Below, one piece after another: positions 5,384-16,121 of a DNA stretch of 64,000 bases. The stretch is taken from contig CANFCK010000008.1 of assembly GCA_947445035.1 (NCBI GenBank), forward strand, positions 1-64,000, written 5' to 3'. Numbering within the stretch: position 1 is the stretch's first letter; every line of letters starts with the position of its first letter. The notes below the pieces were generated by a model that searched no databases, was not told the DNA's origin, and worked only from the letters and a program-made list of their open reading frames with translations. A program made the position numbers and the translations under genes. This stretch comes from Deltaproteobacteria bacterium. Lineage in GTDB: Bacteria; Myxococcota_A; UBA796; SXON01.

Positions 5384-5926
5384 ATGGCACCACGTATGCA
5401 GGAGGTTTACCGCAACACGAGCACGCCAGCGCTCCTCCAGGAGTTCAGCTACGCCAACGTGATGCAGGTGCCTCGGCTCGAGAAGATCGTACTGAACACC
5501 TGCGTCAAGGAAGCCACCCAGAACGTCAAAGTGCTGGAGACGGCGGCCGAAGAGCTCGCGCTAATTACTGGGCAGAAGCCCCAGGTCCGCCGGGCGCGGA
5601 AGGCTATTGCGAACTTCAAGCTCCGCGCTGGAATTCCCATCGGAGCCCGGGTGACCCTGCGCGGTCGCCGGATGTGGGAGTTCCTTGATCGGCTGATCAA
5701 CATCGCGCTTCCCCGCGTCCGTGACTTCCGCGGTATCAACCCGAGGGCGTTCGATGGGCGAGGCAACTATTCCCTCGGCGTCACCGAGCAGATCATCTTC
5801 CCGGAGATCAACTACGACCGCGTGTCGAAGGTGACCGGCATGAACATTTCCTTCGTCACCACCGCGAAGACCGACGCGGAGGGCAAGGCGCTGCTGCAGC
5901 ACCTTGGCCTTCCGTTCCGGCAGTAG
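5384..5926 (+). CDS. rplE: 50S ribosomal protein L5
   Basis: A 180-aa L5, which binds 5S rRNA. Conserved blocks are [69 protein letters not shown] and [16 protein letters not shown] chose ATG 5384, 3 bp behind the rplX stop, over upstream in-frame codons that would lie inside rplX. Confidence 0.97.
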
Positions 5927-10798: not shown

Positions 10799-11560
10799 AT
10801 GATCCCGCTCAAGGAGCCGTGGGAGCTGACGGTCATGCGAAGCGCTGGGGGTCGGCTGGCCGAGGTGGTGGCCCGTCTGCGCGAGGTCGTCGCTGTGGAC
10901 ATGACGACCCTCGACCTGGATCATATGGCGGAGGAAGCGATTCTGGCCCGTGGCGCTAAACCAGCGTTCAAGGGGTATAGGGTTGGCAAGGCGGTGTTCC
11001 CGGCCAGCCTTTGCGTGTCGATCAACGAACAGGTGGTTCATGGCATACCGTCGAAGCGCAGGCTGAAGTCGGGAGACGTGGTCTCGCTGGACTTTGGACT
11101 CGTCTATGGTGGTTACTTCGCCGACACCGCGTTTACCGTGGTGTTGGGCGCGGGGGACGCAGAAGCGGCACGCCTGGTCGCGGCAACTGAGGACGCGCTT
11201 CGCCTGGGAATTGCGCAGGCTCGGATAGGCGCTCGCATCGGTGACATCGGCCACGCGATCGAATCCGCCGTGCGTCCGCAGGGAATGGGGGTGGTGACGC
11301 AGATGGTGGGTCACGGCATCGGCCGCAAGCTTCACGAGCCGCCGAGCGTGCCCAACTATGGTAAAAGAGGGACGGGCGACCTGCTCAAGCCGGGAATGGT
11401 ACTGGCTGTGGAGCCCATGATCACTCTCGGCTCGGACGACACTAAAATCCTATCCGATCAGTGGACAGTAGTGACATCGGACAATAGTCGCTCGGCCCAC
11501 TTCGAACACACCGTGGCCATCACCCCAGCCGGACCGGAAATCCTGACCCGGCTGGATTGA
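10799..11560 (+). CDS. map: Methionine aminopeptidase type I
   Basis: A 253-aa type I methionine aminopeptidase, which removes the initiator Met from nascent chains. The metal ligands are all visible: Asp in SLDFGLVYGG and in FADTAFT, His in MVGHGIGRKLHEPP, Glu in LAVEPMIT and Glu in HFEHTVAIT. It starts 6 bp after adk. In many genomes infA follows; here an 83-bp hairpin-containing spacer leads straight to rpmJ. Confidence 0.97.
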   Translation: MIPLKEPWELTVMRSAGGRLAEVVARLREVVAVDMTTLDLDHMAEEAILARGAKPAFKGYRVGKAVFPASLCVSINEQVVHGIPSKRRLKSGDVVSLDFGLVYGGYFADTAFTVVLGAGDAEAARLVAATEDALRLGIAQARIGARIGDIGHAIESAVRPQGMGVVTQMVGHGIGRKLHEPPSVPNYGKRGTGDLLKPGMVLAVEPMITLGSDDTKILSDQWTVVTSDNSRSAHFEHTVAITPAGPEILTRLD

Positions 11561-11585
11561 ACCGCACGTACTTCGAAGACAAATG

Positions 11586-11631
11586 CAGCGAAAGCTGTTT
11601 CGTTCCATCCGTTGAACCGGCGTAGAGCCGG
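11586..11631 (+). other. Hairpin pair in the slot where infA is usually found
   Basis: In the map-rpmJ spacer (11561-11643), CAGC-GAAA-GCTG forms a GNRA-capped stem at 11586-11597 and CCGGC-gtaga-GCCGG a second stem at 11617-11631. The second ends just before the rpmJ ribosome-binding site (GAGGAG). No T tract follows either stem. Confidence 0.5.
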
Positions 11632-11643
11632 CGAGGAGACCAC

Positions 11644-11757
11644 ATGAAAGTAAAGGCCTCAGTCAAGGTCATTTGCGACAAGTGCCGCGTGATCAAGCGG
11701 CGCGGTGTCGTGCGCGTCATCTGTGAAACAGCCAAGCACAAACAGCGCCAGGGCTAG
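11644..11757 (+). CDS. rpmJ: 50S ribosomal protein L36 (37 aa)
   Basis: A 37-codon gene reading [20 protein letters not shown] at the N-terminus and ending [11 protein letters not shown]. It has the zinc-ribbon ligands of L36: CxxC (CDKC), a later Cys and a His in KHKQRQG. The GAGGAG ribosome-binding site is 6 bp upstream of ATG 11644. It sits directly before rpsM, the expected location. Its length is exactly that of the zinc-binding L36 form. Confidence 0.96.
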
Positions 11758-11766
11758 GAGTACATC

Positions 11767-12144
11767 ATGGCACGCATCGAAGGCGTCGATCTCCCGCGAA
11801 ATAAGCGGGTGGACATCGCGCTCAGCTACATCTACGGCATCGGCCGACCGACCGCCACGGCCATACTTGTGAAGGCCCAGGTGGAAGGCGCGACCCGCAC
11901 GCAGGACCTTTCCGAGGTCGAAATCGCCCGCATCCGCGAGATCATACAGCGCGAGCACCGCGTGGAAGGCGAGCTCCGCAAGGAGGTCGCTATGAACATC
12001 AAGCGCCTCATCGACCTGGGCTCCTATCGGGGTTCACGGCACAAGAGGGGCCTTCCCGCGCGTGGCCAACGCACTCACACCAACGCGCGTACCCGTAAGG
12101 GCCCACGTCGCACCATCGCCGGCAAGAAGGTCGCGGCCAAGTAG
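11767..12144 (+). CDS. rpsM: 30S ribosomal protein S13
   Basis: A 125-aa S13, a head protein that contacts P-site tRNA and forms intersubunit bridges. Features: [27 protein letters not shown] (beginning [14 protein letters not shown]), [13 protein letters not shown], the [20 protein letters not shown] block and the basic tail [11 protein letters not shown]. It starts 9 bp after rpmJ and is followed by rpsK after 9 bp. Confidence 0.97.
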
Positions 12145-12153
12145 GAGGACGGT

Positions 12154-12546
12154 ATGAGCAAGCAAGAATCAGGCAAGAAGGTCAAGCGCGTCAAAAAGAA
12201 CGTGCCCGTGGGCATGGTGCACATCCAGAGCACCTTCAACAACACCATCGTGACGATCACCGACATGGTCGGCAACACGGTGGCGTGGTCGAGCGCCGGG
12301 GTGAAGGGCTTCAAAGGCTCTCGCAAGAGCACTCCGTTCGCCGCGCAACTCGTGGCCGAAGACGCCACGCGCAAGGCCATCGAAAACGGCATGAAGACGG
12401 CCGGCGTCGTGATTCGGGGCCCCGGCTCCGGTCGCGAGTCCGCGCTTCGCGCGATCGCCGCTGCGGGCCTTCGGGTCACGTCTATCGTCGATCAGACTGC
12501 GATTCCCCACAACGGTTGCCGCCCCCCCAAGCGTCGACGCGTGTGA
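12154..12546 (+). CDS. rpsK: 30S ribosomal protein S11
   Basis: A 130-aa S11, a platform protein near the mRNA exit. Conserved stretches are [56 protein letters not shown] and the end [18 protein letters not shown]. In most bacteria rpsD follows; here a 139-bp structured spacer leads to rpoA. Confidence 0.97.
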
Positions 12547-12552
12547 TTCCCT

Positions 12553-12658
12553 CGGCCCCCGTTCTGGGGTGCCGTGAACCCGCCTGGCCAGCACCGCTCG
12601 TCCTTCGGATCGAGCGGAACGTCCATGGCAAGCGAACAGCCGGCTCGGCCAGCCGAGC
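12553..12658 (+). other. Three successive hairpins in the slot where rpsD is usually found
   Basis: Stem 1: CGGC-CCCC / GGGG-GCCG (12553-12574, one bulge). Stem 2: CCGCTCG-TCC / GGA-CGAGCGG (12594-12617, one bulge). Stem 3: GCTCGG / CCGAGC around CCAG (12643-12658). None is followed by a T tract. Stem 3 lies inside a short open frame that ends 4 bp before rpoA. Confidence 0.6.
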
Positions 12659-12681
12659 AAGAAGCTTGCCTCGGAGATTGA
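12625..12681 (+). CDS. Possible 18-codon leader ORF upstream of rpoA
   Basis: ATG 12625 opens an 18-codon frame ([18 protein letters not shown]) that ends TGA at 12679-12681, four bases before the rpoA ATG. It spans the third hairpin of the spacer and contains the GGAG that would serve rpoA, so translating it could open the stem and feed reinitiation at rpoA. This is speculative: the frame is short and a chance ORF is quite possible. Confidence 0.25.
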
Positions 12682-12685
12682 GAAG

Positions 12686-13693
<1,008 letters not shown>

Positions 13694-13715
13694 TCGCGGA
13701 CAGAAGGAGTCCCCC

Positions 13716-14153
13716 ATGCGTCATCTCAGCTCCGGCCGCAGTTTCGGCATCGCGTCCGACCACCGCAAGGCCTTGTTCAACAACATGGTCACCTCCCTGA
13801 TGCTCCACGGGCGCATTCAGACGACCGAAGCAAAGGCCAAGGAGCTTTGCAAACTCGCCGATCGGGTGATCACCTTCTCGAAGAAGGTGCCTCACGCCGG
13901 CTTGGCAAGTTTGGAAGGCGAGGAGCTTCGGGTTGCCAAGGCCCGTCGCGTGCATGCCATTCGGTTGGCTCGTCAGCACATCACCAATCGCGACCTTCTG
14001 GAGGTCATCTTCAGCGAGTACAGTGACCGGTACGCTGCCCGCCCGGGCGGCTACACGCGCATCGTCAAGCTCGGCCGTCGTGCTGGCGACAACGCGCCGA
14101 TGGCCTTGGTGGAACTCGTGACCGAGCCCTACCCAGCGCCCACCGCCGAGTAG
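13716..14153 (+). CDS. rplQ: 50S ribosomal protein L17
   Basis: A 145-aa L17 with the start [43 protein letters not shown] and the C-terminal [20 protein letters not shown]. It closes the alpha operon, 22 bp behind rpoA with an AGAAGGAG site. The gene on the opposite strand ends only 13 bp downstream and no obvious intrinsic terminator lies between. Confidence 0.97.
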
Positions 14154-14166
14154 TTCGACGGCGCGG

Positions 14167-16014
14167 CTATTCGTGCAGGAAGGTGCTGACCTTTCCGGGT
14201 GACTCGGCCGAGCGGACCATCAAGTCCTCTCGGCCGTCGCCGTCAATATCCTCGGCCCATGCCGAGTCGCCGAACCTGTTGCCCGGGTCCAGATCGAAGA
14301 AACCGGGCAAGCTGGTGGAGGGCAGGATGTCGCCCCCGCCCCGCAGAAGCGCAAGTTCCACGAACGCCACTTGCCCCGTGCCTGGCAGGCCGAGGATCAG
14401 GTCGTTGTCACCGTCGTCGTCCAAGTCGCCCACGCCGGTGGGCCGGAGGCTGGCGCTGTCGACCCCGCCGGAAAGGGTGACCATGGCCGCCCCGGTCCAG
14501 CTCGCTGTGAAGTCGGCACCATCGACGATCCAGGTGCGGCCATCTCCGGTCGCGAGGGCGTCCGCCGCGGTGTCGGTGATCATCGCCTCGTCGTAGCCGT
14601 TGCCGTCGATGTCAGGGAGCGTTGAAAACAACAGGCCGTAGGTGTAGGCCCCATAGTCTTGCAGGTCCAGGACACTCGTGGCGCCGCCTGAGCCGCGTTG
14701 CACGGAAGAGAGAAAGCGGAGCGTGCTCGCGCCGGACTCGTCCGCCATGCCGACGACCAGCTCGCCGAGTCCGTCGCCGTCCAGGTCGCCGAGCAGCGCG
14801 GTGTCCAGACAGGCGTAGTCCTCCGATGCGGCGCTGAAGTCCGCCGCGGAGACGCCCTGACTGCCGGAGAGGCTGCTCCAGGACGAGATGAGCACCGCCC
14901 CGTTCCCGGCCCCGCACCCGACGACGAGCGACCCAGCCTCGGGTTCTAGCAAAACCGCGCCCGCCGAGTCGTGGTCTACGTTGGCGACCTCAGCTCCAGT
15001 GCTCAGGTCATCGAGCCCGTAGAACGAGACATTTCCGCCGGTGGCGGAGCCGATCGCCAACGTCGTCTCGCCCGTGATGTCAGTCAGCGACATCGCGTAC
15101 CCGGTGTAGCCGAAGCCCTCGATGACCGAAAGCCCCTCGCTCTTCGGCGTAGTGATGCCGTTGGTCGAGGAGAGAATCCAGACCCTGCCCGCCGCGTAGG
15201 CCTCGCCCTCGTCATCGTACCCCTCCGTGCCCGGCGCACTCACCGCGAAGTCGCGCCGGCCGTCGTCGTCGCGGTCCGGCAGGAAGACTACCTTGTGGCC
15301 GAGCAGGTCCTCCCCGGTGCCGGAGTCGCCCGAGGCGCGGGACGTCGAGAGTGAGACTGAGACGTAGTCCACGATCTTGTCGCAGTCGTCGTCGTAGTCG
15401 TTCCAAAGTTCGTCCATGCCGGTGTTGACGAGGTCGTTGAGGTCGTCGCAGTCGCCGCCGGCGTGGGCTTCGGTCTCCTGACCGTCGTGGTCCTGGTCCC
15501 AGTCGTTGTCGCCAGCGCAGTCGGCGTCGGTGCCGTCATACCAGACCTCGACGGCCGAGTCGTTGACCTCAGCTGGCGTCAGGCCAGCTTCGTTGGGGTA
15601 GGGAATCGACTCGTCGTCCCAGCAGTCGTGGCTGATGTCGTAGCCGTCACCGTCGCAGTCGGTGCCGCCTTCCCAGCCATCACAGTCGTTGTCGAGCACG
15701 TCGTAACAGATCTCCACGTGCCCAGGATTGATGTTGGGATTGCTGTCATCGCAGTCGTCGCCCCCCCCGTTCTGGCCGATGTACCCATCGCCGTCGACGT
15801 CGTTGACATCGGCTCCGTCACAGTCTTCATCGACGCCGTTGTAGGGGACCTCGTAGTGGCCTGGGTAGACGTTGGCGTTGTCAGGCGAGCAATCAGCATC
15901 ATCGGGGACGCCGTCGCCGTCGCGGTCGGAGGCGGCCGATGTGCCGTCGCCCGTGTCGTCGGTCTCCCCGGCACCTTGGGTTTCACAGGCGAAAAGCAAC
16001 AGAGAAATGAGCAT
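14167..16014 (-). CDS. MopE-type / FG-GAP-like surface lipoprotein
   Basis: A 615-aa predicted lipoprotein. The start chosen at 16014 gives MLISLLLFACETQG, a short signal peptide with a lipobox ending at Cys; the open frame extends 19 codons further but without a signal. Residues about 30-235 carry Asp/Cys-rich MopE-type units (DRDGDGVPDDADCSPD, YNGVDEDCDGADV, WYDGTDADCAGDND), each like a calcium- or copper-binding DxDxDG loop. Residues about 245-615 are integrin-like FG-GAP repeats (DRDDDGRRDFAVSAPG, GDLDGDGLGELVVG, DIDGDGREDLMVR). Probably an extracellular metal-binding propeller; the ligand is not known. Transcribed towards rplQ. Confidence 0.8.
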   Translation of the reverse strand: MLISLLLFACETQGAGETDDTGDGTSAASDRDGDGVPDDADCSPDNANVYPGHYEVPYNGVDEDCDGADVNDVDGDGYIGQNGGGDDCDDSNPNINPGHVEICYDVLDNDCDGWEGGTDCDGDGYDISHDCWDDESIPYPNEAGLTPAEVNDSAVEVWYDGTDADCAGDNDWDQDHDGQETEAHAGGDCDDLNDLVNTGMDELWNDYDDDCDKIVDYVSVSLSTSRASGDSGTGEDLLGHKVVFLPDRDDDGRRDFAVSAPGTEGYDDEGEAYAAGRVWILSSTNGITTPKSEGLSVIEGFGYTGYAMSLTDITGETTLAIGSATGGNVSFYGLDDLSTGAEVANVDHDSAGAVLLEPEAGSLVVGCGAGNGAVLISSWSSLSGSQGVSAADFSAASEDYACLDTALLGDLDGDGLGELVVGMADESGASTLRFLSSVQRGSGGATSVLDLQDYGAYTYGLLFSTLPDIDGNGYDEAMITDTAADALATGDGRTWIVDGADFTASWTGAAMVTLSGGVDSASLRPTGVGDLDDDGDNDLILGLPGTGQVAFVELALLRGGGDILPSTSLPGFFDLDPGNRFGDSAWAEDIDGDGREDLMVRSAESPGKVSTFLHE

Positions 16015-16024
16015 CGGGACCCCG

Positions 16025-16047
16025 CGGCCGGGATTGTACCCCGGCCG
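16025..16047 (-). other. Perfect 8-bp hairpin 11 bp upstream of the 16014 start
   Basis: CGGCCGGG (16025-16032) pairs with CCCGGCCG (16040-16047) around a 7-nt loop. On the - strand the loop reads GTACAAT and the only ribosome-binding-like bases (GGGG) follow the stem. It may hide or set the translation start, or mark a promoter (TACAAT resembles a -10, with TTGACG 21 bp upstream, too long for a good spacing). Confidence 0.45.
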
Positions 16048-16069
16048 TCGGCCAAGCGGCGTCAAGTCC

Positions 16070-16121
16070 AAAAAAGGCAGAGCCCGCGCTGAGATTGGCC
16101 TCCCCTGCCTCTCTCAGCGCG
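16070..16121 (-). terminator. Intrinsic terminator of the small gene at 16139-16303
   Basis: Read on the - strand: a 10-bp perfect stem CGCGCTGAGA/TCTCAGCGCG (16121-16112 and 16094-16085), then GGCTCTGCC and a run of six T (16075-16070). It starts 18 bp after the stop of the 54-codon gene and isolates it from the lipoprotein gene. Confidence 0.7.

Follow-up and report, generated by a model that had tools for sequence, protein, structure and literature searches.

Comparative evidence strongly indicates that the 139-bp spacer between rpsK and rpoA holds a conserved RNA, beyond chance hairpins, and this RNA is, on balance, probably a cis-acting operator of the ribosomal-leader type in the alpha operon, which controls the translation of rpoA-rplQ. 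The spacer lies in the window, the whole stretch of 64,000 nucleotides that was analysed. Comparison of sequences supports a conserved structure, a pseudoknot, a place before rpoA and the lack of any match above background in those loci read that keep rpsD within the operon; what we infer is repression of translation, a protein as ligand and a switch. The spacer RNA probably sets the amount of RNA polymerase alpha that is made.

Gene order around rpoA

The genes that frame the spacer are the following.

12154-12546, + strand, rpsK (uS11), open reading frame directly 5' of the spacer
12686-13693, + strand, rpoA (RNA polymerase alpha), open reading frame, the gene presumed to be regulated
13716-14153, + strand, rplQ (bL17), open reading frame after rpoA, last in the cluster

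An earlier sequence-only reading of this DNA had rpoA following rpsK with no rpsD between them, and this arrangement is borne out, with rpsK ending at 12546, rpoA starting at 12686 and a spacer of 139 bp. The same reading held that detection of rpsD at this site in the true genome would refute it. No rpsD is found there; the sole S4 match in the 60-contig assembly, a protein of 205 aa (L001), is unlinked and lies on a different contig. The order to which the window belongs was sampled with 63 genomes, in which rpoA was matched in 58 and S4 in 57, and the regions 5' of the 58 rpoA loci (30 + 28 loci, the window among them) were read. rpsK adjoins rpoA without rpsD in 56 of the 58, across spacers of 64-222 nt. 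The proposal that rpsD was lost from the operon and that structured RNA stands in its place thus extends to 56 of the 58 loci read in the order, the window being one of them. The two exceptions, L133 and L134 (extended as L208 and L209), have no rpsK in the stretch read. The order rpoA then rplQ is as in the window in the 30 loci compared.

rpsK-rpsD-rpoA is the arrangement in all six of the sister-order genomes of the same class that gave an rpoA match (6 of 8). Further afield, the named loci comprise the best 80 of 579; six belong to the order, and among the remaining 74, rpsD is inside the cluster in 66 and absent in 8. Two Deltaproteobacteria MAGs outside the order that have no rpsD at this place (L050 and L052) carry rpsK-rpoA spacers of 291-293 nt with shared stretches, which are perhaps another rpoA leader. 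We also note that the minus-strand region 14167-16071 of the window, convergent to rplQ, encodes a protein that has a MopE-type metal-binding motif and weak FG-GAP matches below the Pfam cut-off, and that one order genome encodes a second RpoA-like protein, 42% identical, beside the normal rpoA (G049:C7:2879-3805).

S4 type and origin of the gap

The zinc cysteine pattern is found in none of the 31 unlinked order S4 proteins read (57 order genomes have an S4 match), and zinc cysteines are present in 6/6 sister-order and 65/65 named in-operon S4 proteins read. Judged by these residues, the gene lost from the operon is a zinc-type rpsD and the S4 found is unlinked and zinc-free. According to passages of Chen et al. 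2009 (PMC3087516), a zinc-free S4 was gained elsewhere and the zinc-type copy of the operon was then lost; the S4 pattern of the order is the one described there, and the gap therefore has an origin of a known kind. In those passages, the C-(IV) S4 outside the alpha operon is likewise zinc-free and unlinked, with the operon copy gone. The S4 of the order is single, unlinked and without N-terminal zinc cysteines, its assignment to the C-(IV) subclass being by cysteines only. The passages of PMC3087516 concerned mention no RNA in the vacated slot, whereas here the slot holds a conserved RNA. In the sister orders, one genome (G158) has both a zinc S4 in the operon and a zinc-free S4 that is unlinked (L205, L211), a pair that represents the intermediate expected ahead of loss of the operon copy.

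The unlinked rpsD has a conserved leader of its own, with CCCAYGA further up and GCACC before GGAG (L001:1390-1497; L140-L169). Both marks occur in 15 of 31 loci, the GCACC mark alone in 3 and neither in 13, and they are restricted to three of the six families (f1, f3, f5). This leader is possibly a site of S4 self-control. It gave no match of note to Rfam in 19 loci, and no match to the rpoA leader was found in the stretch of up to 108 nt before rpsD in 31 loci.

Architecture of the spacer RNA

The features of the spacer in the window are listed below; A1 is a 38-row alignment of the core, described in the next section.

12553-12574, + strand, H1 hairpin, the first stem of the sequence-only reading, GC-rich and without a U tract
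12582-12592, + strand, GCCTGGCCAGC stretch, 10 of 11 positions invariant in 14 aligned rows of the window's own family
12584-12589, + strand, upstream pseudoknot strand CTGGCC, inside the preceding stretch, pairing with the P2 loop
12594-12617, + strand, H2 hairpin, the second stem of the sequence-only reading, found in the MFE fold and by RNAalifold
12622-12624, + strand, pyrimidine stretch before P1, possible anti-Shine-Dalgarno (TCC/GGA, 3 pairs, weak in the window)
12627-12633, + strand, P1 5' strand, pairing with 12664-12670, missed by the sequence-only reading
12634-12638, + strand, 5' side of the internal loop, GAACA in the window (A1 consensus GNNGA)
12639-12658, + strand, P2 hairpin, strands 12639-12645 and 12651-12658, with A12656 as a bulge
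12646-12650, + strand, P2 apical loop CGGCC; GGCCAG at 12647-12652 can pair with 12584-12589
12659-12663, + strand, 3' side of the internal loop, AAGAA (consensus AGAA)
12664-12670, + strand, P1 3' strand, beginning 9 nt before the rpoA Shine-Dalgarno
12673-12676, + strand, rpoA Shine-Dalgarno GGAG

Three successive stems had been drawn in the spacer. Those at 12553-12574 and 12594-12617 stand, but the third, drawn at 12643-12658, differs from the pairing that is conserved. The core that is conserved, P1-internal loop-P2, is also present in the MFE fold of the window. At the H1 site, own-family relatives have a hairpin of altered sequence, as seen by eye only. RNAalifold on A3, an alignment of 14 own-family leaders with 6 of the 20 own-family loci left out, leaves H1 unpaired, probably because the region is poorly aligned. 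The same program predicts seven pairs for H2 (A3 columns 84-90/103-109); for six of these, one row or more has both partners changed.

The letters of the internal loop are invariant in 38/38 rows at A1 columns 7, 38 and 40, and in 37/38 at columns 10, 11 and 39. The window is the sole A1 row of the 38 without G at the fourth loop position, column 10 (GAACA vs GAUGA), so that its own copy may be weakened or contain a sequence error. By eye, the GNNGA/AGAA loop has room for a GNN bulge followed by GA/GA, with one A left over.

Covariation and transfer of the family model

The fold energy of the window spacer is unremarkable when taken alone (z -1.73, with 12 of 200 shuffles as good), which, together with the departure of this copy in the loop, would suit a relic of rpsD or a functionless, chance GC-rich spacer. 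Such an origin is nevertheless very improbable in the face of the covariation, the transfer of the model across families and the swap control of the pseudoknot. Of 56 spacers, 37 include P1 in their MFE fold (at least 4 pairs, or all where there are fewer); the mean energy z is -1.84.

Core placement in the 56 spacers used a script whose score favours pairing and loops of the GA type, and the covariation, pairing and loop-column results are therefore inflated. A1 holds the 38 rows with a 5-nt 5' loop and leaves out 18 of the 56 loci; some loci outside it depart from the consensus, among them the two own-family loci L018 and L019, which have GTTCT/CGCA loops. A check for covariation in relatives, suggested along with the stems, was run, and the stems of the spacer do covary. 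The whole-core covariation in A1, subject to the inflation just given, is 0.546 vs 0.220 (sd 0.019) for shuffled and at most 0.151 for slid alignments. In P1, 93.0% of cells are paired in A1 and 6/6 pairs are changed on both sides; P2, which A1 aligns poorly, is paired in 70.8% of cells there and in 91.1% in the own-family alignment A2. A2 (18 own-family rows) is 92.3% paired overall and gives a covariation of 0.516 vs 0.222. The count of further pair types is not unusual, being reached by 72/500 (A1) and 180/500 (A2) shuffles.

Two models were built, R1 from the 38 A1 rows and R2 from the 18 own-family rows only. R2 was searched with filters off against 37 of the 38 other-family loci, L121 being left out. 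The top 16 of its 94 matches are exactly the rpoA-leader core, from 34.9 to 14.1 bits (E 5e-7 to 0.22), six of them at E<0.01. In all, R2 lists the core in 23 of the 37 loci, seven of these lower down among mixed matches, and it is absent from the list in 14.

The pseudoknot

The P2 loop carries a G..C core whose complement lies upstream in the spacer, in the window as 12584-12589/12647-12652, a pairing that the sequence-only reading did not include. The letters of the two strands change together between loci, as in CAGGTCG/CGACCTG (L117), CCAGGCC/GGCCTGG (L023), TCGGACC/GGTCCGA (L024), GTCCAA/TTGGAC (L136) and GGCCAAG/CTTGGCC (L031). In a Watson-Crick test that left the place of pairing free and demanded the G..C loop core, a requirement chosen after the loops were inspected, at least 5 pairs with the locus's own upstream sequence form in 36 of 47 loci vs 17.5 with upstream sequences swapped from other families (sd 3.1, max 25, 200 draws), and at least 6 pairs in 19 of 47 vs 5.9 swapped (max 12). 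For loci of the other families, the count with at least 5 pairs is 21/27 vs 8.4 swapped (max 16); at the threshold of at least 4 pairs the count of 22/27 falls within the null (16.2 swapped, max 22). A few loci, L015 and L137 among them, score by another pairing than the intended one, and L020, L112, L119, L123 and L132 give no score in this test. A permissive search yields a mean of 16.1 vs 14.9 swapped (sd 0.36, max 16.3); the excess is modest because GC-rich sequence pairs readily. This search, like the two counts around the Shine-Dalgarno given below, left out 11 of the 56 loci, 2 of which were restored for the Watson-Crick test.

Translation start and transcription signals

In 36 of 45 loci the distance from the start of the P1 3' strand to the rpoA Shine-Dalgarno is 7-9 nt. 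Across 45 loci, 35 have a pyrimidine tract ahead of P1 that is able to make four or more pairs with the Shine-Dalgarno, compared with a shuffled mean of 24.7 and maximum of 32 (500 draws), and RNAalifold on A3 pairs the two, mostly by G-U and without double changes. The sequence evidence that the tract may pair with the Shine-Dalgarno is moderate, and in the window itself 3 pairs only can form.

An 18-codon frame had been noted across the end of the spacer. It exists, with ATG at 12625 and TGA at 12679-12681, four bases before the rpoA ATG, but it is not conserved: of 20 own-family loci, two share this ATG, namely the window and L003, its nearest relative. Another ATG, within the GAUGA loop, occurs in 15 of the 20, opening frames of 8 to 27 codons with varying stops. 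A leader-peptide attenuator was considered and set aside, as the 20 own-family loci share no conserved short frame. An intrinsic terminator or attenuator was likewise rejected, with no stem + U-run site in 12100-13100 (1.0 expected by chance). No promoter-like site was found in 12100-13100.

Distribution of the leader

R1 scores its site in the window at 42.5 bits, the window being in the training set, and the next match there is 13.0 bits at 5543. Across the 63 order genomes (102 candidates scored per genome), R1 gives 40 matches of at least 32 bits, of which 35 are rpoA leaders, all training rows, and 5 lie elsewhere, one at 42.1 bits in G010. Four of these five overlap long open reading frames on either strand and the fifth is in G021. 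Such high scores elsewhere mean that the model alone is not specific genome-wide, and it is the fixed place before rpoA that counts. A search of the phylum, which scored 22 candidates in each genome, gave a match at E<=0.01 in 82 of 282 genomes, 30 from the order and 52 from outside it.

Among the 74 named loci that do not belong to the order, the highest-ranking match (E 0.11) lies away from rpoA and a weak one stands directly before rpoA in L058 (14.2 bits, E 1.3), in a search that missed 4 of the 6 order contigs (L034-L037). The six sister-order loci that keep rpsD, together with L208 and L209, give nothing above background, the best being 12.8 bits (E 0.10). The sister-order gaps between rpsD and rpoA are 11-137 nt in the five measured, with weak matches in L207 (11.3 bits, E 0.29) and L203 (8.5 bits, E 2.0). 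A plasmid search with the spacer gave no match.

Relation to known leaders

The S4 operator of the E. coli alpha operon, which we take to be Alpha_RBS (Rfam RF00140), resembles the spacer element in that both are RNAs with a pseudoknot at a ribosome binding site of the alpha operon, with presumed translational control. It sits at rpsM, whereas the spacer RNA lies before rpoA in an operon without rpsD. Identity with Alpha_RBS was rejected: no match to it was found at E<=5 in the window (11500-14300) or at E<=3 in 20 order loci, and the pseudoknot is not at the start of rpsM, the spacer element preceding rpoA. Against Rfam 15, the window (11500-14300) gave one chance-level match, elsewhere (E 4.4), and the 20 order loci gave nothing but tRNAs and weak matches located on or next to them. 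Families of S4 or L17 leaders are absent among these matches, in the same window stretch and the same 20 loci, although published leaders may lack Rfam models.

In E. coli, the alpha cistron is described in the pertinent part of PMC10931766 as unaffected by S4, i.e. outside S4 repression. The S4 leaders predicted in Bacteroidia and Flavobacteria, as presented in parts of PMC7247131, share with the spacer RNA a location inside the alpha operon ahead of rpoA-rplQ; they precede rpsD and are called hairpins, whereas the spacer RNA precedes rpoA. The L17 leader predicted in Actino- and Proteobacteria in the same source would have its ligand in common with the spacer RNA if bL17 is right, but it is listed there with rplQ only, and the spacer RNA precedes rpoA-rplQ. 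Bacillus subtilis has the same arrangement of the alpha operon, rpsM-rpsK-rpoA-rplQ with S4 elsewhere, and for Bacilli, with their unlinked rpsD, control of the alpha operon is called unknown in a section of a 2024 review (PMC10931766). No such rpoA leader was reported in the top listings of the open-access literature searched. The spacer RNA shows one mark of a ribosomal leader, a conserved, covarying structure that leads a unit with a ribosomal-protein gene (rpoA-rplQ), and it would be a new operator of this type in an unusual place.

Candidate ligands

Two stretches of 16S bear on the choice of ligand: GGGU GAUGA..UAAA GCCC, which we take to be helix 16, part of the S4 site, and GGU GUAGA..AGAU AUC, presumably the helix 23 k-turn, the uS11 site. 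Helix 18, helix 23 and helix 16 were considered in turn, and the rRNA resemblances do not decide the ligand. Imitation of the ligand's own binding site on rRNA is frequent among ribosomal leaders, though not a constant. The counts below for six order 16S exclude L176, and n=7 with it; L176 (G019) is a partial 16S without the sequence marks of the other order 16S read, possibly from a contaminant contig.

bL17 is by a narrow margin the favoured candidate ligand. In the relevant passages of PMC7247131 a regulated gene is assumed to encode the ligand, as it does in every case known, and this rule points to bL17, which alone among ribosomal proteins is encoded downstream in the cluster. uS4 is a possible ligand and comes close behind bL17, another ligand or none at all is doubtful, and uS11 is improbable.

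That uS4 from its unlinked gene binds a loop imitating 16S helix 16, and so keeps rpoA-rplQ under S4 control, is a questionable reading. uS4 is the established regulator of the alpha operon in E. coli (PMC10931766, in part), and several groups have predicted S4 leaders, which in two of them stand directly before rpsD-rpoA-rplQ (PMC7247131, in part); uS4 as ligand would, however, violate the rule, as worded in those passages of PMC7247131, that one of the regulated genes encodes the ligand. Under the own-family matrix, 4 of the 7 16S read have their best match at helix 16, but it does not lead in two further order 16S, shuffled rRNA attains its scores in 6, 0, 4 and 0 of 60, and the best 23S score, 17.9, falls within the helix 16 range of 16.2-19.5. 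By loop letters alone, helix 16 comes first in 4/6 and second in 2/6 (L176 excluded), yet the loops of other families (GUAGA, GCAGA) are less like it. R2 matches helix 16, by coordinates, in 4 of 6 16S (E 0.44-1.7), whereas R1 scores it at only 8.3 bits (E 4.3), in two 16S, its best 16S place being elsewhere (13.7 bits, E 0.11, L173). The different conserved leader of rpsD in three of the six families also speaks against uS4.

The loop may instead imitate the helix 23 k-turn and bind uS11, encoded just 5' of the spacer, which seems quite unlikely. When the matrix comes from the other families, the highest-scoring loop match in 6/6 order 16S is helix 23, tied in one of them, at 10.0 of 15.4 in five and 8.0 in one against a 23S best of 9.3, figures that stand without a shuffle control. 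S11 is said to fold its cognate k-turn in an unpublished statement of the authors in PMC5061560, in the part concerned. Nevertheless, the 16S of L176, set aside, scores 14.7 elsewhere, the pooled matrix gives helix 23 7.9 vs 10.2 for 23S, the own-family GAUGA loops lose the resemblance, and neither R1 nor R2 lists helix 23 by coordinates.

Proposed mechanism and meaning

In the proposed ribosomal-leader operator, the core hairpin P1-internal loop-P2, held by the pseudoknot to a strand just after rpsK, would abut the rpoA Shine-Dalgarno. A ribosomal protein in excess over rRNA would bind the internal loop and bring about a closed form, which, possibly with the pyrimidine tract on the Shine-Dalgarno, would block loading of 30S on rpoA. 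rplQ would be repressed along with rpoA by coupling. Once the protein is drawn into ribosomes, the operator would open. An element without ligand, serving mRNA processing or stability or as a translational set-point that tunes rpoA vs rpsK, is rather unlikely; some cis-regulatory RNAs of ribosomal proteins may bind none, according to a passage of PMC7247131, but in our judgement the invariant loop letters (A1 columns 7, 38 and 40) and the pseudoknot exceed what a set-point needs.

An operator at the start of rpoA would tie the supply of ribosomes to that of RNA polymerase, and its presence where rpsD was lost would make it a case of regulatory rewiring. A dedicated RNA polymerase alpha operator bound in trans by uS4, whose gene left the operon by zinc-free replacement, is unlikely; if true, the supply of RNA polymerase and ribosome assembly would be directly coupled, and the operator would show a regulatory link rebuilt after an operon loses its regulator.
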